Assembly (NCBI RefSeq): GCF_016899855.1
Contig: NZ_JACJJG010000004.1
Coordinates: 1-64,000, forward strand
Reading direction: 5' to 3'
Origin: Marseilla massiliensis
GTDB lineage: Bacteria; Bacteroidota; Bacteroidia; Bacteroidales; Bacteroidaceae
DNA: 64,000 bases
Both the position numbers and the translations under genes were made by a program. Of the stretch, positions 3,041 through 59,285 are shown piece after piece. Every line of letters starts with the position of its first letter. Within the stretch, counting starts at the first letter, position 1. The notes under the pieces are model-generated. The model worked only from the letters and a program-made list of their open reading frames with translations, had not been told where the DNA came from and ran no database searches.

Positions 3041-3435
3041 GCTAAAAACTTCGGATTAGCAATCATCTTTTACCGATAAAATTAATAATCTTTGCAAAGT
3101 GGCACCAAAACGCTTTCAATTTGTATTCCAAAACGGCGATGAAGCAAAAAGTTGTGGCAAATATCCTCATTTGACTTACCAATATGTACTAACTGCGGCA
3201 CTACAACCGTCAAGATGGTATAAAATTTGCGTCTCATGCCCTTCTTATATCTGGCTGACCGTGCGATGCGAGCGGAATGCCAAGTTATACGCCATGCCCC
3301 ATCCTTTGACTATTTTTAACAAAACGGAGAACCTTTGTTTTTCCATTTACTTTACATTTATTTTTCATGAAATAGAAAGCGTCAAGGTATGTGCAGGCTA
3401 AACAAACACGGCTATACCCTATCATTAACACATTT

Positions 3436-3589
3436 GACGACCTTTAAACATGCCATTAACGGCCTTTGGACTGACAATCAACGGCATTTTACATTGCAAA
3501 TAACGGCTAAACGAACAGCATAAAACATGCTTATTATGCCACGAAAAAGGCTTGTTTTACATAAAAAGCAGCTTATTTCAGTTTGCCAT
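3436..3589. repeat. 22-bp periodic intergenic array A (about 7 units)
   Basis: Units start at 3436, 3458, 3480, 3502, 3524, 3546 and 3568, all 22 bp with no spacer. Units 1-4 begin GACGACC, AACGGCC, AACGGCA and AACGGCT; the first three continue with TTT, and several units end in an A-rich tract. Units 5-7 are weaker. The gap 2945-3847 also holds the purU promoter box and small AT-rich hairpins; its short open frames look non-coding. Confidence 0.6.
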
Positions 3590-5902: not shown

Positions 5903-5907
5903 CACTG

Positions 5908-5979
5908 TGTTTTTCATGGTATTAGATTATTAAGGTTAATAAAAGATTGGTTGTCGTGAGACAATCAATTTTTGTTTTA
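5908..5979 (+). ncRNA. Small RNA resembling the Bacteroidales-1 motif
   Basis: A consensus promoter is followed by about 70 nt without an open frame, containing TTTTTCATGGTATTAGAT and AAGGTTAATAAAAG. It ends in an intrinsic terminator: ATTGGTTGTC (5946-5955), loop GTGA, GACAATCAAT (5960-5969), then a T-rich run. The layout and wording match the Bacteroidales-1 RNA motif as I remember it, whose function is unknown. It sits between the convergent DUF3256 and receptor genes, so its terminator may serve both sides. Confidence 0.65.
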
Positions 5980-9535: not shown

Positions 9536-9635
9536 AGCATATTTTTCTATACCTGCAAATTTTTCATGAGATATTTTCAAAAAAACATCTTTTTTGTTCA
9601 TGTTTGCCTGTTTTCCTGCATTATATATTCCAATT

Positions 9636-9723
9636 AACGGCCATTTGGATTATAAAAGACGGCAAAACACATGATAAAATGCCGCATATTGCATGACAAA
9701 TGGCGGCATTTCATAAACGATGA
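9636..9723. repeat. 22-bp periodic intergenic array B (4 units)
   Basis: Units start at 9636, 9658, 9680 and 9702 and begin AACGGCC, GACGGCA, TGCCGCA and GGCGGCA. The first two end in AAAA, the third in AAAT. Units 3 and 4 also form an inverted pair, AAATGCCGC (9677-9685) with GCGGCATTT (9703-9711). The gap 9484-9927 otherwise holds the tRNA promoter and the glgP terminator. Confidence 0.65.
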
Positions 9724-12483: not shown

Positions 12484-12528
12484 AATTTATTTTATGTTCA
12501 AGAATTATAGTTTTTGTAATTAAGAATT

Positions 12529-12597
12529 AAAAGTTAAGAATTAAGAGAACTGCCGCCTGGTCGTTTGCCATGCATATTTCCTTAATTCTTAACTTTT
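12529..12597. repeat. Inverted repeat of the TTAAGAATTAAG type, copy 1
   Basis: AAAAGTTAAGAATTAAG (12529-12545) and CTTAATTCTTAACTTTT (12581-12597) form a perfect 17-bp inverted repeat around 35 nt. It abuts the glycogen synthase stop codon. A related element lies at 17704-17793. It could act as a terminator or processing hairpin between the two glycogen genes. Confidence 0.8.
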
Positions 12598-14299: not shown

Positions 14300-14630
14300 A
14301 TAATTTTTATTACAAAACAAAAAGTGCCTTATAAAAATTTTTATAAAACCCATGTTTTCTTGACATACATAAATTGCCATATCACAACTGTATAAAAGGG
14401 CGGTACATATGCCGCCACACACTCATCATGCCACAATGTCCGCATTGGGGCGGAAATGCTTTCTTTTTGATTTTCAACAAAGTCTCAGAATCGAGTTATT
14501 TTAAAAATAAAAACGACAGGACGCAAATAAGCGAAAATAGAGCGTGCACATGCTAATAGACTGCAATACAGTCCATTACATTACACAGCACAACATCTGT
14601 GCAATAAAAATCACCGTAAAAAGGGTGAAA

Positions 14631-14718
14631 CATGACCGTTGCAAACACAAAAAGCCGTCCATTATCCCGGCAAAGACCGTAAACGACACGACAATAAACG
14701 GCCTTTTATTACTAAAAA
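14631..14718. repeat. 22-bp periodic intergenic array C (3-4 units)
   Basis: Clear units start at 14653, 14675 and 14697, beginning AGCCGTC, GACCGTA and AACGGCC; they end in AAA, ATA and AAAAA. A weaker unit precedes them from about 14631. Between 14545 and 14640 lie small hairpins: GACTG-CAATA-CAGTC, CACAG..CTGTG and TCACC..GGGTGA. The rest of the gap 14300-15029 is AT-rich with no convincing gene. Confidence 0.5.
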
Positions 14719-15166: not shown

Positions 15167-17707
15167 ATGACCAGTCAATTTTCACCAAAAGTATCTCAAA
15201 TACTGGCGTTCAGCCGCGAGGAAGCCGCACGGCTTGCCAGCAGGTCGGTAGGACCCGAGCACTTATTGCTTGGCATCCTGCGTGACAAGACAGGCCCTGT
15301 GCATGAATTATTCGTAAAATCAGACATCAATTTCCAATCAATAAAAGACGAGCTTGAGCAGAAGGTGCGTGAAGAGGACATTGCGCAACCTTTGCGCACG
15401 CATGAACTCGTACTGAACGAAAAAGCCAGCAACATCCTGAAACTGGCTGTGCTCGAAGCACGCATACAATCCAGGCAGATGGTAGACGAGCAGCATTTAC
15501 TGCTCGCCATACTTCATGACCAAGTGAACAACGGCGCAAAAGAAGTACTTGAATTTAACAACATGAACTACGAGGACGCACTGACATATTTCCAGCAGGC
15601 GGCTAACATACCCAATGACGGAATCAGCATGCCCGACAAGGATGAAGATGACGAAGACGGTATGCTCAGCATAAACGGCGACAATTCACAAAAAGCAAGA
15701 CAGCAAGGCACGACAACAAGCGTTCACCGCCCTACGGGCAAAACCCCCGTACTTGACAACTTCGGTACAGACCTGACAAAGGCTGCCTCGGAAGGGAAAC
15801 TCGACCCCGTTGTAGGACGTGAACGCGAAATACAGCGAGTAACCGAAATCCTTTGCCGGCGCAAGAAAAACAATCCGGTATTAATTGGCGAGCCCGGCGT
15901 AGGAAAAAGCGCCATCGTAGAAGGATTGGCACAGCTGATATGCGCCCACCGCACGTCTCCGGTCCTGTTTAACAAAAGAATAATAAACCTCGACATGGCA
16001 GCCATCGTGGCAGGCACGAAATACCGAGGCCAATTCGAGGAGCGCATAAGGGCACTCGTCAAGGAAATAGAACAAAATCCGGATGTAATCATCTTCATAG
16101 ACGAAATCCACACACTCGTAGGCGCAGGATCCACACCTGGCTCAATGGACGCAGCCAACATGCTGAAACCGGCACTCGCACGCGGCACCATACAGTGCAT
16201 CGGCGCAACAACACTTGACGAATACAGGAATTCGATAGAGAAAGACGGAGCGCTGGAGAGACGCTTCCAGAAAGTAATGGTTGAACCGACCACCGCCGAC
16301 GAGACTGTAGCCATACTCAGGAACATCAAAGACCGCTACGAACACCACCATCATGTGGAATACTCTGATGACGCCATTCTGGCGTGTGTCAAACTGACAG
16401 ACAGATACGTGACAGACCGCGCCTTCCCTGACAAGGCCATCGATGCTCTCGACGAAGTCGGCGCACGCGTTCATCTTCAGCACGCCCAAATGCCTCCGGA
16501 AATAAGTGAAAAAGAGAAAGAAATCAGCTATGTCAAGGAAAAGAAGCAGGCGGCTGTGCGTAACCAGAACTTTGAATTGGCCGCAAGTTACCGCGACAAG
16601 CAGGTAGAACTTGAAAACGAGCTGAAAGAGCTGCAGGACAAATGGACTAATAACGAAATCGGCAGCCGCGACATCATTACTGACAAAGATGTAGCAGACG
16701 TCGTTTCGACGATAACAGGAGTCCCCGTACAACGCATTGCCGAGGCAGAGGGCACCCGACTGAAAAACATGGGTGAAGAACTGAAAAGCGCCGTCATAGC
16801 CCAAGACAAGGCCATTGAAAAAATGGTAAAAGCCATACAACGCAACCGCGTGGGGCTGAAAGAAGCAAACCACCCCATTGGGGCGTTCATGTTCCTTGGC
16901 CCTACAGGCGTAGGCAAAACGTATCTCGCAAAAAAGCTTGCTGAATGTATGTTTGGCAGCAGCGACGCTCTCATACGTATTGACATGAGCGAATACAGCG
17001 AGAGCTTCAACACGTCAAGGCTTGTCGGAGCGCCTCCGGGATATGTAGGATACGAGGAAGGCGGCCAACTTACGGAAAAGGTACGCCGTCACCCCTACTC
17101 TATCGTATTGCTTGACGAAATCGAGAAAGCTCACGGCAACGTGTTCAACATGCTGTTGCAAGTGCTTGACGAGGGTCGCCTTACCGACGGCAACGGACGT
17201 CTGATAGACTTCCGCAATACGGTAATCATAATGACCAGCAACGCCGGTACACGCCAACTAAAGGAATTCGGGCGTGGCGTTGGTTTCACGGCTGGCGGAA
17301 GCATGGGGCTGAGCCTGAACGAGAACGACAAGGAGTATGCACGCAGCATAATACAGAAGAGCCTGAGCAAACAATTCAGTCCAGAGTTCCTTAACCGCCT
17401 TGACGAAATAATCACGTTCGACCAGCTTGACCTCAACGCGATAAAGAAAATCATTGACCTTGAGCTTAATGGTTTGAATAAACGTGTAGAAGAGCTTGGA
17501 TACAAACTCGATATAACTGACAAGGCAAAAGAGTTCGTGGCAATGAAAGGCTACGACGTGCAATTCGGCGCACGACCGTTGAAACGTGCCATCCAGAACT
17601 ACATCGAGGACGGCGTATGCGAACTCCTGCTCGACGGCAAACTCACAGCCGGCGACATAATCAAAATTGACAAGAATCCGGAAAAAGAGGAACTTGTATT
17701 CAATTAA
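15167..17707 (+). CDS. clpC: ClpC-type AAA+ protease ATPase
   Basis: This 846-residue Hsp100 has N-terminal Clp repeats (about 1-150), an acidic linker (PDKDEDDEDG), a first AAA domain with Walker A GEPGVGKSAIVEG at about 241, a UVR-like middle segment (NFELAASYRDKQVELENEL, about 465-485), and a second AAA domain with Walker A GPTGVGKTYLAKK at about 578. The UVR segment and short middle domain mark ClpC rather than ClpB. It unfolds proteins for ClpP in the cytoplasm. The start follows AGGAG. No ctsR-like gene is nearby. Confidence 0.94.
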   Translation: MTSQFSPKVSQILAFSREEAARLASRSVGPEHLLLGILRDKTGPVHELFVKSDINFQSIKDELEQKVREEDIAQPLRTHELVLNEKASNILKLAVLEARIQSRQMVDEQHLLLAILHDQVNNGAKEVLEFNNMNYEDALTYFQQAANIPNDGISMPDKDEDDEDGMLSINGDNSQKARQQGTTTSVHRPTGKTPVLDNFGTDLTKAASEGKLDPVVGREREIQRVTEILCRRKKNNPVLIGEPGVGKSAIVEGLAQLICAHRTSPVLFNKRIINLDMAAIVAGTKYRGQFEERIRALVKEIEQNPDVIIFIDEIHTLVGAGSTPGSMDAANMLKPALARGTIQCIGATTLDEYRNSIEKDGALERRFQKVMVEPTTADETVAILRNIKDRYEHHHHVEYSDDAILACVKLTDRYVTDRAFPDKAIDALDEVGARVHLQHAQMPPEISEKEKEISYVKEKKQAAVRNQNFELAASYRDKQVELENELKELQDKWTNNEIGSRDIITDKDVADVVSTITGVPVQRIAEAEGTRLKNMGEELKSAVIAQDKAIEKMVKAIQRNRVGLKEANHPIGAFMFLGPTGVGKTYLAKKLAECMFGSSDALIRIDMSEYSESFNTSRLVGAPPGYVGYEEGGQLTEKVRRHPYSIVLLDEIEKAHGNVFNMLLQVLDEGRLTDGNGRLIDFRNTVIIMTSNAGTRQLKEFGRGVGFTAGGSMGLSLNENDKEYARSIIQKSLSKQFSPEFLNRLDEIITFDQLDLNAIKKIIDLELNGLNKRVEELGYKLDITDKAKEFVAMKGYDVQFGARPLKRAIQNYIEDGVCELLLDGKLTAGDIIKIDKNPEKEELVFN

Positions 17708-17793
17708 GGGTTAAGAATTAAGAGTTAAGAAAATATGACTTGGAGTTTTAATTGTAAGTGTATTTTTCTTAACTCTTAATTCTTGACTCTTAA
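17704..17793. repeat. Inverted repeat of the TTAAGAATTAAG type, copy 2
   Basis: Arms 17704-17735 and 17761-17793 share TTAAGAATTAAGAGTTAAGA with few mismatches and enclose about 25 nt. One end overlaps the clpC stop and the other ends next to the stop of the convergent gene at 17795, as expected of a bidirectional terminator. The arms share their core with the element at 12529-12597. Confidence 0.75.
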
Positions 17794-30405: not shown

Positions 30406-30464
30406 GATGTAATTGCCTTAATATTCCGTTATGTATAAATCCATAAATAAAGTATATTGCGAAA

Positions 30465-30552
30465 TGCCATCTTTTGAATTGCCAGAGGCAGCATATTACG
30501 CATTAAAAGACGGCCTCTTGCCTGACAATAGGCCACCTTTTGAAAAACATAT
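30465..30552. repeat. 22-bp periodic intergenic array D (4 units)
   Basis: Units start at 30465, 30487, 30509 and 30531, beginning TGCCATC, GGCAGCA, GACGGCC and GGCCACC. TTT, ATT, CTT or TTT occupies about positions 9-11, and the second unit ends in AAAA. The array lies in the divergent gap between the reductase and AraC genes. The rest of the gap (30553-30768) shows nothing but the AraC promoter. Confidence 0.65.
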
Positions 30553-32572: not shown

Positions 32573-32637
32573 ACCGCCTCCACCCAACACGTGGGCGGGC
32601 ACACATAATTTACCGGTACGGAAGGCAGTTACGGAAG

Positions 32638-32747
32638 ACAGTCTCTTATCTTGAAAAAAGCGGCCATCCACAAGCTTATATACGGCATATCGCAAACCGG
32701 TTGGCGGCATATCACAACCAGGCAGAGCAGCCATACAGACTTCATGC
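32638..32747. repeat. 22-bp periodic intergenic array H (about 5 units)
   Basis: Units start near 32638 and at 32660, 32682, 32704 and 32726. The clear ones begin GCGGCCA, ACGGCAT, GCGGCAT and AGCAGCC; the first ends in A/T-rich sequence and the unit before it in AAAAAA. The units at 32682 and 32704 are nearly the same over 12 bp (CGGCATATCRCAA). The gap 32573-32972 otherwise holds only the next promoter. Confidence 0.55.
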
Positions 32748-43340: not shown

Positions 43341-43761
43341 GTGTAAAATTTCGATTAAGCGAAATAAAAGGGAAAAAGTTTTTATTTTTGCAAGTGCGTA
43401 AAACGTATTTTGGCCGTAATCGCAACGAATACAATACTATACAGCCTCAACGGCACATCATTTAGCAAACCGCGAAACATAACATGACAACTAGCTGTAC
43501 ATCATTGCATAATCGCGAAGGCATATATAATTCCGGGCAATGAATATGGCAGCTCCACACTCAATTACGCCAAAGCGGCAAAAAACGCTAAAAAACAGAC
43601 ATTTACCTGTTTACGCCAACATACTCGCCGTCACACTTTTCAAATAACAAAATGTAAGGCTTAAAAAGTTTTCTGCAACATAACGGCACAGCAAAAACAT
43701 CAACAAAAAGTAGCGAAATAGAATTTCCAGAGCACGAATACAGACTGGTTAACAACCGAAA

Positions 43762-43849
43762 GACGGCCCTTTCGACTGCAAAAGACCGCTCTTAGCAAGA
43801 CAATAAGCGGTCTTTTGCACAAGAAAAAACCGACTTTTCATGGACATAA
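43762..43849. repeat. 22-bp periodic intergenic array E (4 units)
   Basis: Units start at 43762, 43784, 43806 and 43828, beginning GACGGCC, GACCGCT, AGCGGTC and AACCGAC. T-tracts lie at about positions 8-11 and A-rich tracts at 19-22. Units 2 and 3 also form a perfect 14-bp inverted repeat, TGCAAAAGACCGCT (43777-43790) with AGCGGTCTTTTGCA (43806-43819). The rest of the gap 43341-44258 is AT-rich, with a GCGGCAAAAAACGC stretch near 43575 and no convincing gene. Confidence 0.7.
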
Positions 43850-53824: not shown

Positions 53825-53966
53825 TTGTATTTTCTCAGTGCAAACTTACACATTTTTTTATTATTACGGCATAAAACGGAAATAAGATTTCCATAACACT
53901 TGGTAAAAGACATAACATAACACACCGCACGGCTTCATACTTTTACAAACGCCTGGCGTGCCGAAA

Positions 53967-54054
53967 GATGGCAAAATGTAAACCGAAAGGCCGTCAATCA
54001 TCCTATAAAACGCCATGTTTTGCAGTGTAAAAGACGGAATTTCACAACACGCTA
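53967..54054. repeat. 22-bp periodic intergenic array F (4 units)
   Basis: Units start at 53967, 53989, 54011 and 54033, beginning GATGGCA, GGCCGTC, CGCCATG and GACGGAA. The first ends in AAA and the next two in AAAA; the unit at 54011 has TTTT at positions 8-11. The rest of the gap 53825-54284 shows no gene. Confidence 0.65.
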
Positions 54055-56555: not shown

Positions 56556-57971
56556 TTATCCGAACAAAGCCCTTAGCGCTTCCTCCACCTTGCGTACGGG
56601 CACGAGATTTATGTTGAACTTACTGCGGGAGAGCCCTTGCAGGTTGTATTTAGGTATTATTATATTCGAGAAACCGAGTTTCTCGGCTTCGGCTATGCGT
56701 TGTTCAATACGGCTGACAGGGCGTACTTCACCACTCAGTCCAACTTCTCCAGCCATGCACCATCCGGCCTCTATCGCCGTGTCAACGTTACTCGAAAGCA
56801 CCGCTGCAATGACACTCAGGTCCATGGCCATGTCCGTAACACGCAACCCTCCCGCTATATTGAGGAATACGTCCTTCTGCATTAACTTAAATCCAACGCG
56901 TTTTTCAAGTACTGCGAGCAACATATTGAGCCGTCGCTGGTCAAAGCCCGTGGCACTGCGCTGCGGCGTTCCGTAAGCGGCCGAAGAGACAAGCGCCTGC
57001 GTCTCGACAAGAAACGGGCGTACGCCCTCAATCGCCGAGGATATAGCCACGCCACTAAGCCCTTCATGATCCTGTGTCAACAGCAGCTCCGAAGGGTTGG
57101 ACACTTCACGCAGTCCGTCCTGTTCCATTTCGTAAATGCCCAGCTCCGAGGTACTGCCGAAACGGTTTTTGGTTGAGCGAAGAATGCGGTACATATAGTG
57201 CTGGTCGCCCTCAAACTGAATTACAGTATCCACGATATGCTCAAGAATCTTAGGCCCTGCCAATGTTCCTTCCTTATTTATATGCCCTATAAGGATTACA
57301 GGTATGCCGCTCGACTTGGCAAAACGCAGCAGTGCCGACGCACATTCGCGCACTTGTGTCACGCTGCCCGGCGAGCTGTCAACGGTCTCCGTGCTGATTG
57401 TCTGTATCGAATCTATGACCACGATGTCAGGAGTTGCCTCCTGTATCGTGGCAAAAATATTTTCAAGCGACGTATCGCAAAGAATCAGGCAGCGCCCGTC
57501 AGTGCTGCCGACATCATTGTTAACCCTCTTGCCTATACGTTCCGCGCGCATTTTCAGCTGGTGGGCACTCTCCTCTCCGCTGACATACAACACACGGCGG
57601 TCGGTCATGCGCAACACCGTCTGTAGCGTTAGCGTGCTCTTTCCTATACCAGGCTCACCGCCAAGCAGAACAATCGACCCCGGCACAAGTCCTCCGCCGA
57701 GTACCCGGTTAAGCTCGGCGTCGTGCATATCAATGCGCGGTTCGTCATTGGCCGATATTTCATGAAGCGCCATCGGACGTGCTTTACCTTCACGCCTGCC
57801 GCCCCTTAACGTGGCCGCAACGTTGGCGGCGGCCTTCTGCCCTACGCTTTCAGGAGCGACACGTATTTCCTTAAACGTATTCCATTGCCCGCAACTGGGA
57901 CACTTGCCTACCCATTTTGATGATTCCTGACCGCAATTAGAGCATACGTACGCTATCTTGTCTTTTGCCAT
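56556..57971 (-). CDS. radA: DNA repair protein RadA
   Basis: I chose the ATG at 57971 (MAKDKIAYVCSNCGQESSKW), which gives the standard start of the family, about 471 residues; the frame extends 12 codons further up. It has an N-terminal zinc finger CxxC..CPSC, Walker A GGEPGIGKSTLTLQ (about 104), the RadA motif KNRFGSTSE (about 264), and a Lon-protease-like C-terminal domain. It drives branch migration in recombination. Confidence 0.95.
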   Translation of the reverse strand: MAKDKIAYVCSNCGQESSKWVGKCPSCGQWNTFKEIRVAPESVGQKAAANVAATLRGGRREGKARPMALHEISANDEPRIDMHDAELNRVLGGGLVPGSIVLLGGEPGIGKSTLTLQTVLRMTDRRVLYVSGEESAHQLKMRAERIGKRVNNDVGSTDGRCLILCDTSLENIFATIQEATPDIVVIDSIQTISTETVDSSPGSVTQVRECASALLRFAKSSGIPVILIGHINKEGTLAGPKILEHIVDTVIQFEGDQHYMYRILRSTKNRFGSTSELGIYEMEQDGLREVSNPSELLLTQDHEGLSGVAISSAIEGVRPFLVETQALVSSAAYGTPQRSATGFDQRRLNMLLAVLEKRVGFKLMQKDVFLNIAGGLRVTDMAMDLSVIAAVLSSNVDTAIEAGWCMAGEVGLSGEVRPVSRIEQRIAEAEKLGFSNIIIPKYNLQGLSRSKFNINLVPVRKVEEALRALFG

Positions 57972-58083
57972 AAATACATTGAATAAACGATGGTAAACAA
58001 AGAACAATCTTCATCATACAGCCGTCCTTACGGAGCATCAACACCCGCGGCGCTACGCCCTGACCGCCAGGCCCTTTACAAAA

Positions 58084-58171
58084 GGCCGTCTTTAGCAAGG
58101 CTAAAGGCCGTGTTTCGCATTACAAAAGACGGCCTTTTACAACGCGAATGACGGTCTTTTACAAAACGTAC
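58084..58171. repeat. 22-bp periodic intergenic array G (4 units, best preserved)
   Basis: Units start at 58084, 58106, 58128 and 58150, beginning GGCCGTC, GGCCGTG, GACGGCC and GACGGTC, each followed by TTT(T) at positions 8-11 and mostly CA at 13-14. The A-tract at 19-22 is clear in units 1 and 2 (TAAA, AAAA). A partial unit (GGCCCTTTACAAAA) precedes. Units 1 and 3 have opposite cores, so AAAAGGCCGTCTTT and AAAGACGGCCTTTT can pair. The gap 58008-58367 also holds a promoter and candidate RNA. Confidence 0.75.
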
Positions 58172-58233
58172 GGTATTATGTATGACAATAATTACTCCTC
58201 ACCCATTTTGTTTTACAAAAGTAACAATATTTT

Positions 58234-58263
58234 TTTGAGTTACAAAATAAATCATTAACTTTG
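58234..58263 (+). promoter_or_regulatory. Promoter of the candidate small RNA/leader before 58368
   Basis: A -33 TTTG at 58234-58237 and a -7 TAACTTTG at 58256-58263 are 18 bp apart, followed by CACCACC. The predicted start is near 58270, about 98 nt before the lipoprotein ATG. Confidence 0.65.
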
Positions 58264-58269
58264 CACCAC

Positions 58270-58353
58270 CGTTGAATGATGCAGACTAATATCGCACATT
58301 AATAATAAACTCTGAAGGGCGACTCGGTTGTAAAACGCTGGGCTGCCCTTTTT
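58270..58353 (+). ncRNA. Candidate small RNA or attenuating leader
   Basis: About 85 nt follow a good promoter and end in a hairpin: AAGGGC (58315-58320) with GCCCTT (58345-58350), an inner CTCGG/CTGGG stem, then TTTTTAAT. There is no obvious open frame. The layout (promoter, 50-nt body, terminator) matches the RNA at 5908-5979, but I do not recognise the family. It either ends as a small RNA or controls read-through into the lipoprotein gene 15 bp downstream. Confidence 0.5.
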
Positions 58354-58367
58354 AATAAGGTAAAAAC

Positions 58368-59285
58368 ATGAAAACCAAATACATTGTCTTTTTCTTGTTG
58401 GCAGCCGTCATCATGACTGGATGCGGACAATCGTACGAGGAAAAACAACGGTTGTCAAGGGCCGAGCAGGCCAGGCTGCACCGTGAAGATTCACTCGCAT
58501 TGAAAATCGGCGTAATGCCGACACTCGACTGCCTGCCAATATACGTCGCCAAGGATTACGGGCTGTTCGACTCGACCAAGGCCGACATCAGGCTCAAACC
58601 GTTCAAGGCGCAGATTGACTGTGACGCGGCATTGATGAAAGGCGCAATAGAAGGATGCATAACCGACATAGTACGCGGGCAATGGATGAAAGGTAAAGGA
58701 ACAGCCCTTGACTATGTCGCAGCCACGAACACGTATTGGCAACTCGTAAGCAACAGGCTGGCCAGAATCAGGCGTATCAACCAGATGAACGACAAGATGA
58801 TAGCCATGGCCCGCTTCTCGGCTACGGCCTTGCTCGCCGACTATGCGGTAGACAGTGCAAAACTAAAATCAGAAGACGTATTCAAAGTACAGATTAACGA
58901 CGTAAACCTTAGACTGCAAATGCTCATGAACAACGAAATGGACGCTGTGCTGCTGCCCGAGCCACAGGCCACAACGGCGCGCCTTTACAAGAATCCGGTG
59001 CTCATGGACAGCAGGGACAAGGACATGTGGCTTGGCGTAATCGCCTTCAGAAAGAAGGACATGAAGGATGAAAGGAGGAAACAGCAGCTTGACGTATTCA
59101 TGAAAGGATACAATGCAGCTTGCGACTCAATCAACAAAAACGGGCTGAAACACTACGCACGGACTATAGAAAAATACTGCGGCACGGACGAAAAGACCGT
59201 CAACGCACTACCTAAAATTAAATTCCGCCGCGCAGAGGCTCCACGCCAAAAAGACATCGAAACCGCCGATAAATGGCTAAAATGA
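58368..59285 (+). CDS. Solute-binding lipoprotein (NMT1/SsuA-like fold)
   Basis: A 305-residue protein with a lipoprotein signal (MKTKYIVFFLLAAVIMTGCG, lipobox MTGC) and a two-lobed type II binding-protein pattern: KIGVMPTLDCLPIYVAKDYG, GAIEGCITDIVRGQWMKGKG, and MLMNNEMDAVLLPEPQ. Such proteins bind sulfonates, nitrate or thiamine precursors for ABC importers. No permease or ATPase gene is adjacent; instead a TPR protein overlaps its stop codon. The ligand is unknown. Confidence 0.8.
   Translation: MKTKYIVFFLLAAVIMTGCGQSYEEKQRLSRAEQARLHREDSLALKIGVMPTLDCLPIYVAKDYGLFDSTKADIRLKPFKAQIDCDAALMKGAIEGCITDIVRGQWMKGKGTALDYVAATNTYWQLVSNRLARIRRINQMNDKMIAMARFSATALLADYAVDSAKLKSEDVFKVQINDVNLRLQMLMNNEMDAVLLPEPQATTARLYKNPVLMDSRDKDMWLGVIAFRKKDMKDERRKQQLDVFMKGYNAACDSINKNGLKHYARTIEKYCGTDEKTVNALPKIKFRRAEAPRQKDIETADKWLK

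Follow-up and report, generated by a model that had tools for sequence, protein, structure and literature searches.

A common gut genus appears to carry hundreds of intergenic arrays per genome, and the element is found across much of that genus. The arrays have a rigid 22-bp frame, usually count four units, are placed between genes and keep their place while their letters turn over. We propose that an array is the landing platform of a putative DNA-wrapping oligomer at the borders of transcription units, a reading to which we give a probability of about 0.45. But how would such a platform work? Its sites are palindromes, usually four, exactly two helix turns apart, and would hence lie on one face of the duplex. 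An oligomer of four dimers, like the octamers of Lrp/AsnC proteins, could land on the four-site array and hold about 88 bp in a fixed nucleoprotein block. The block would keep read-through, or the supercoiling of one transcription unit, from reaching the next, and the phased A/T steps would lower the cost of wrapping, bending being a contributing property. We infer binding by a protein and wrapping of the DNA; insulation is what the position of the arrays suggests. In the available parts of the sources, octamers of the Lrp type seem to set one dimer on each 15-bp semipalindrome and to wrap the DNA (PMC10201364, PMC2995911), and the centres of Lrp-type sites stand two or three helical turns apart (PMC2995911).

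The window, the whole 64,000-nucleotide stretch analysed here, belongs to the source genome (G000, 3.49 Mb); a sibling species (G004) serves for comparison. A period-22 profile, seeded with A and T tracts only and then refitted, finds eight arrays in the window, array G included (Table 1). The units of array G, each a 15-bp semipalindrome with a 7-bp linker joining it to the next, are aaaaGGCCGTCttta, taaaGGCCGTGtttc, aaaaGACGGCCtttt and gaatGACGGTCtttt, with the cores GGCCGTC, GGCCGTG, GACGGCC and GACGGTC. The strongest lag-22 signal of the window starts here, at 58081 (0.70 identity over 66 positions). Among eight lags (11, 20-24, 33 and 44) only 22 and 44 reach 0.6, and Tandem Repeats Finder returns 58076-58128 with a period of 22, 2.4 copies and 67% matches. 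The sequence-only reading had put an array at 58084-58171, an observation that is partly confirmed: the 22-bp array is present, but the extent in Table 1, from a re-reading of the letters and the profile, is better, as a start at 58084 omits the first A-tract (58080-58083) and the counted 58168-58171 is GTAC, no tract. It was correct in placing the T-tract and the A-tract 11 bp apart. Its claim of at least eight tracts on one face holds for the eight A/T positions at 11-bp steps, but only four of these are unbroken 4-base runs (AAAA, AAAA, TTTT and TTTT), the others being TTTA, TAAA, TTTC and GAAT. The core, which it had taken to be free, is not entirely so, being a degenerate G-R-C-S-G-Y-C in the profile of the source genome. 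Ordinary annotation misses the arrays: a comparison of the window with Rfam 15 gives seven matches at gathering scores, none over any array. One match, at 5907-5978 (+), is to FopS, small RNAs that occur as paralogues in Bacteroidetes (74 bits against a gathering score of 56). The window also holds heptamer repeats of the AATTAAG type at 12518-12546, 17702-17731 and 17766-17793.

Table 1. Arrays in the window and the genes beside array G, with candidate arrays at matching places elsewhere
Feature	Position	Strand	Units	Profile score (bits)	Remarks
Array G	58080..58160	none	4	86.2	Matching-place arrays: G004, L165 18564 (both flanks); MAG CALUGP01, L143 205 (one flank)
Array	53963..54043	none	4	55.5	Matching-place array: G004, L163 5594 (one flank only)
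Array	43758..43838	none	4	53.1	
Array, degenerate	32633..32713	none	4	40.1	Matching place: G004, L162 11239 (28/81 positions alike, one flank only)
Array	30461..30541	none	4	61.7	
Array, weakest of the eight	14627..14707	none	4	29.9	Matching place: G004, L161 7102 (both flanks, 36/81 alike)
Array	9632..9712	none	4	60.6	Candidate partner G004, L161 2237, also candidate partner of G000, L018 9517, so orthology ambiguous
Array, degenerate	3432..3512	none	4	38.5	Also a lag-22 match
radA-like gene	56556..58007	-			Left of array G, transcribed away; AAA_25, zinc ribbon, ChlI and Lon_C domains, from which it is named; open frame with predicted start
NMT1-like solute-binding protein gene	58368..59285	+			Right of array G, transcribed away; PF09084, E 2.9e-4, just over the cut-off

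How general is the 22-bp period? In the window and 20 further stretches of the source genome (441 kb), lag 22 gives 22 islands and lag 44 gives seven, and each other lag from 8 to 60 gives 0-3. The profile finds 87 arrays in 819 kb of G000 (106 per Mb), which extrapolates to about 370 in the whole genome, and 47 in 400 kb of G004, with none in the reversed sequence of either; totals vary with the threshold and the stretches taken (87, 92 and 97 in G000; 47, 51, 89 and 96 in G004). Among unit pairs 15-40 bp apart, the spacing is exactly 22 in 246 of 254 (G000) and 122 of 126 (G004), with none at 21 and none at 23; the reversed sequences hold seven and one pairs in all, of which one and zero are at 22. 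A spacing of 22, never 21 or 23, in two species supports the helical phasing that the sequence-only reading had put behind the period, and the frame stays rigid in decayed copies. Arrays have exactly four consecutive units in 74 of 92 cases in G000 and 71 of 89 in G004, and the first unit outside scores on average -14.0 and -15.1 bits, respectively; the finder sums four units, so that shorter arrays are under-counted and longer ones are not. Read from the profile weights, the unit consensus is R-A-W-W-G-R-C-S-G-Y-C-W-W-T-Y and the linker is near R-C-A-N-T-R-Y.

With genes called by a simple, purpose-made codon-usage caller, no called gene overlaps an array in the larger run, and one of 38 arrays overlapped a called frame in the smaller one. 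Coding repeats are ruled out, as 22 is not a multiple of 3 and no array of the larger run lies over a called gene. Of the gaps that measure at least 150 bp, an array is present in 29 of 53 (divergent), 10 of 29 (convergent) and 49 of 162 (tandem) in G000; the corresponding numbers for G004 are 31 of 65, 20 of 37 and 38 of 163. Not one of these 244 (G000) and 265 (G004) gaps holds two arrays of this profile, with 17.2 and 17.9 expected and nine the lowest value in 5000 simulations. In tandem gaps the median array lies 74 bp after the stop and 222 bp before the next start in G000, and 72 and 231.5 bp in G004, and the array is nearer the stop than the next start in 40 of 49 and 31 of 38 cases. 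This layout, one array per gap, near the upstream stop and far from the next start, fits a border element and not a promoter operator. Inspection of the flanks led to a TGATNATCA-type box, a choice made post hoc, which occurs in 14 of 174 array flanks of G000 (0.61 expected) and five of 94 of G004 (0.24 expected). Its usual distances, 5/6, 17 or 28 nt, differ by about 11 bp, and we take it to resemble an IHF site.

What is inherited is the place. A blast of array flanks against G004 and MAG loci yielded 37 candidate rows, in which 28 to 70 of the 81 positions agree; 12 rows are backed by both flanks, several have a partner in common, and the place can be off by as much as 390 bp. In a control, the flanks of 25 G000 arrays set 37 places in G004; a G004 array lies within 150 bp of 23 of these places (17 of the 25 arrays), and at places shifted by 1.5-4 kb the number falls to 0-3 of 37. 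The letters themselves are a different matter: the 26 candidate rows in G004 share on average 46.0 of 81 positions, random array pairs share 43.0 (sd 5.8) and only six of the 26 exceed the 95th percentile of random pairs. Thus, position and frame are inherited and the letters are nearly randomised within the code of the family. The array beside radA has 56 of 81 positions alike in G004 (both flanks) and 60 of 81 in CALUGP01 (one flank).

The A/T steps bear on what is being read. The 11-bp A/T harmonic leads in 77 of 97 G000 arrays and in 76 of 96 G004 arrays, a count partly built in because the profile was seeded with tracts at an 11-bp distance. Six other genomes gave 28 arrays independently of the profile, and in 23 of them the 11-bp A/T power exceeds that of dinucleotide shuffles (p<=0.05), which, however, also destroy the 22-bp repeat. 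Set against permuted unit columns, the 11-bp power has a mean ratio between 1.7 and 4.1 in five groups and of 0.9 in the one array of G006. The 11-bp harmonic leads in only 11 of 27 other-genome arrays, so the 11-bp phasing is less general than the 22-bp period. At the inner two tract positions A is replaced by T (237 in G000, 264 in G004) far above G (33 and 52) and C (20 and 42). Because T, and not G, replaces A there, we think that the inner positions are selected for A/T content of the duplex in steps of 11 bp, which fits a reading of the duplex. Against the wrapping oligomer, G and not T is the main substitute for A at the outer positions (in G000, G 230 and T 31 at position 0, G 44 and T 21 at position 1; G004 is alike).

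Duplex binding does not predict one puzzling feature of the arrays, which is that neighbouring cores tend to be reverse complements. In four subsets from the two species, the cores of U1:U2 and U3:U4 are so beyond shuffles (z 2.7, 7.8, 3.6, 3.2 and 2.3, 4.5, 3.0, 3.6); only the G004 subset L158-177 is new, the other three largely repeating earlier arrays, and the shuffles ignore the relatedness of arrays. This covariation first emerged in 37 and 28 arrays and then in larger sets that overlap with these, and in the second G000 subset it is weak beyond orientation. An array might then be a folded single strand, in which U1 with U2 and U3 with U4 pair into two hairpins (15-bp stem, 7-nt loop), as RNA or as cruciforms, serving for example as a double two-way terminator or an RNA border. 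Of the 47 arrays of G004, 32 pair best as 12+34 (15.3 expected). Tracts of partner units are complementary beyond the null in six of eight tests (z 1.7 to 3.7; 0.6 and 1.1 in the other two), and U3/U4 of one matched pair (L135 16789 and L116 6852, one flank) differ by two changes that compensate each other, GGCGGCC/GGCCGCC against GGTGGCC/GGCCACC. In 23 arrays the partner units have exactly two wobble-type mismatches, and in 18 of these the two belong to the same class, G-T or A-C (about 11.5 by coin toss), as expected of a one-stranded RNA.

We nevertheless consider the hairpins unlikely. In G000 the 13+24 pairing, which would be a pseudoknot, is about as common as 12+34 (35 and 38 wins of 87), and G-T and A-C mismatches in total (31 and 43; 17 and 17) show no wobble preference. 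Were pairing the constraint, G should outdo T at the inner tract positions as well, since it keeps a pair with T or U; it is T that substitutes. The linker between the two hairpins is as rigid as their loops, the CALUGP01 array beside radA (one flank) has all four units in the same direction, and arrays are frequent in the divergent gaps, which have no called gene end. A scan for intrinsic terminators around array G only (57900-58420) found none, with a mean of 0.5 in shuffles. Covariation within units is absent as well, and unit-sized hairpins (7-bp stem, 7-nt loop and 1-nt spacer, making 22) were rejected on that ground. Part of the core pattern may come from quasipalindrome correction between neighbouring units. 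Neighbours are similar in general, units 2 and 3 being alike in the direct sense (z 2.8, 2.2, 3.5, 1.3), but these two do not covary in the reverse-complement sense. Orientation also leans to one order, unit 1 opposite 2, 2 like 3 and 3 opposite 4, in 28 of 87 arrays of G000 (10.3 expected) and 10 of 47 of G004 (6.0 expected); in the most frequent orders of G000 the two outer units point in one direction and the two inner units in the other. The core pattern could owe something to hairpins, to template switching from one unit to its neighbour and to a direction-sensitive protein.

Could the arrays simply be selfish? A REP/BIME-like or MITE-like repeat, spread by a transposase and then decaying, would account for the many dispersed extragenic palindromes and for families that are species-specific; families of G003 and G017 share flanks beyond the array, and a repeated non-coding G000 element of about 400-450 bp carries other 22-bp arrays. 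REP/BIMEs are recognised by more than 100 extragenic palindromic copies per genome, a number that the arrays exceed when the 87 in 819 kb are extrapolated to the genome, and by regular alternating units; here the spacing is regular and one order of orientations is favoured (28/87 vs 10.3 in G000, 10/47 vs 6.0 in G004). We still find this origin improbable. Among seven genomes the RAYT family (PF01797) is found in G004, G010 and G016 but not in G000, G003, G012 or G017, and a REP/RAYT system was set aside for want of the transposase in G000. Selfish copies would also not explain arrays kept at matching G004 places (23/37, shifted 0-3), a frame that stays rigid in decayed copies and never two arrays per gap. 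The G000 element itself lies at L024 4207-4610, L025 16251-16653, L018 15209-15583 and L128 18555-18935, with 68-88% likeness to the L024 copy; three copies carry 22-bp arrays with the core GCTATGC, and Rfam has no match over it in L024, L025 and L018. In G017 five near-copies of one array family (L044 9474, L044 14995, L046 14833, L047 445 and L047 7569) have conserved flanks, with single units inverted or exchanged between copies.

The sequence-only reading had explained the fixed period by bending, and expected more predicted curvature than in neighbouring AT-rich spacers. Two models were used, a roll model with Olson-type values and the Bolshoy wedge model. The roll model gives mean bends of 27.7 (G000) and 25.2 (G004) degrees for arrays and 13.7 and 12.9 for shuffles, and separates arrays from AT-matched neighbours with an AUC of 0.92 and 0.95. 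The wedge model gives 49.9 and 51.0 for arrays and 42.2 and 38.4 for shuffles, with an AUC of 0.61 and 0.67. For array G the roll bend is 26 against 14 in shuffles (0.06 of which reach it); the wedge bend is 46 against 43 (0.43 reach it), with 16, 23 and 53 in three windows beside it. At most 0.05 of shuffles reach the array for two of the eight window arrays in the wedge model and for five in the roll model. For array G the expectation of curvature thus partly fails: in the wedge model its bend is close to that of shuffles, and one neighbour bends more. As a reason for the 22-bp period, bending gains a little from the phased A/T positions and the raised roll bend and loses by its dependence on the model. 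The interpretation is partly supported by these predictions, with array DNA that appears bendable and phased rather than strongly curved. That intrinsic curvature alone is the function of the arrays, as phased A/T positions and a raised roll-model bend might suggest, is highly improbable and would explain little, because the predicted bend is small and model-dependent and array G is not above shuffles in the wedge model, tracts broken by TpA (AATA, GATA) are common, and four units, palindromic units and one array per gap are left unexplained.

Beyond the two species, geometry travels further than sequence. Counts of the motif GACGGYCTTTTACAA in 24 genomes of the genus show enrichment in G000 (405 vs 26 in the control) and G004 (113 vs 12) and stay near the control level in the other 22; the records sharing it number 19, all Prevotella or Prevotellaceae. 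Five genomes carry 22-bp arrays on other palindromes: G017 with the cores AAAACCTACGCTTTTGC and TGACGTCA, G010 with GGTCATC and TGACGTCA, G012 with GGGCTGC, G016 with arrays of the TGCATCAAATTG type and G003 with TTATACA-N4-TGTATAA and GTTTCACCATGGTGAAAC. At no more than two mismatches, the TTATACA places of G003 form 12 clusters, of four units in five, five units in one and one to three units in six; a full reading of three GTTTCACC loci and one TTATACA locus shows four units in every one. Some families of G003 and G010 have five-unit arrays. Among TGACGTCA arrays, one of G010 has five units and one of G017 about ten (L203, C55 from about 7297), the latter fading toward one end. Lag-22 islands, after a filter that dropped those with N, with more than 80% A+T, with more than 60% of one base or inside open frames longer than 450 nt, number 80 in G000, 55 in G004, six in G010, 11 in G016, three in G012, seven in G017, nine in G003 and one in G006 (20 kb). 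The same filter leaves none in G009 (100 kb), in G008 (40 kb) or in two other families of the order (G025 and G030, 100 kb each), and one in 177 kb of mixed other genomes. Lag-21 signals in G009 are mostly heptamer simple repeats, which are frequent in its stretches, and coding stretches. G008, with no 22-bp array in its 40 kb, has candidate four-unit arrays of 21-bp period at L190 3757 and L191 1717, and in G034, of another family of the order, L089 11597 is a four-unit 22-bp repeat (0.65 self-identity) without the 11-bp A/T harmonic.

What would the wrapping protein be? It counts against the model that several unrelated palindromes in one genome (G003, G017) would call for several proteins, or one with little sequence preference. 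A search that covered the genomes other than G016 and G017 finds two AsnC-type proteins in G000, two in G004 and three in G009. For three of these genes (both of G000 and one of the two in G004) the nearest array is about 3 kb away or more; autoregulation by an array next to the gene of an Lrp/AsnC regulator is common but not obligatory. Against the wrapping oligomer, G009 has three AsnC-type genes and no array in 100 kb, and the unit number is not always four (five in G003 and G010, about ten in G017 C55).

A broader proposal, which we hold to be possible but doubtful, is that Prevotella marks the borders of its transcription units with a sequence-flexible duplex signal, usually four palindromes two turns apart, at most one set per gap, of which geometry and place are kept. 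If true, this signal would be a bacterial counterpart of a positioned nucleosome or an insulator, and it would be read by one wrapping protein devoted to it, or by several paralogues that differ in their letters and agree in their geometry. Insulation of genes by arrays would bear on how gut bacteria partition their chromosome, and the arrays make it testable whether helical spacing, rather than sequence, can be the selected trait. The best-ranked open PMC listings for 22-bp or palindromic intergenic repeats of Bacteroidales, Bacteroidetes and Prevotella, for curved DNA, for REP/BIME and for five cores, with subscription papers outside this scope, hold no prior description of the arrays.

Among known systems, plasmid iteron arrays are tandem sites of about 20 bp, whereas the arrays occupy hundreds of chromosomal loci and have palindromic units of varying direction. 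The 11-bp A-tract periodicity of bacterial intergenic DNA also consists of A/T steps of about 11 bp in non-coding DNA, but it is, in the available parts of PMC516772 and PMC3940949, a diffuse statistical signal, and an array is a discrete element of defined length. REP/BIMEs with RAYT share with the arrays abundant extragenic palindromes, species-specific sequence and perhaps ordered orientations, as far as the accessible text of PMC2817692 goes; the arrays differ in being rigid at 22 bp, usually of four units, often in divergent gaps and present in a source genome without RAYT. The closest layout is that of the operators of the Lrp/AsnC-type octamers BarR and FL11. As the available portions of PMC10201364 and PMC2995911 describe them, they too comprise multiple sites, each a 15-bp semipalindrome and often degenerate, which face the same side of the helix at a spacing of two or three turns. 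The DNA of these operators is wrapped round the octamer, according to the same portions. This resemblance is a likeness of layout and not proof: none of the three AsnC-type genes examined has an array next to it. In the BarR and FL11 cases the accessible text places the operators near the regulated genes, whereas the arrays described here stand at gene borders, hundreds per genome.
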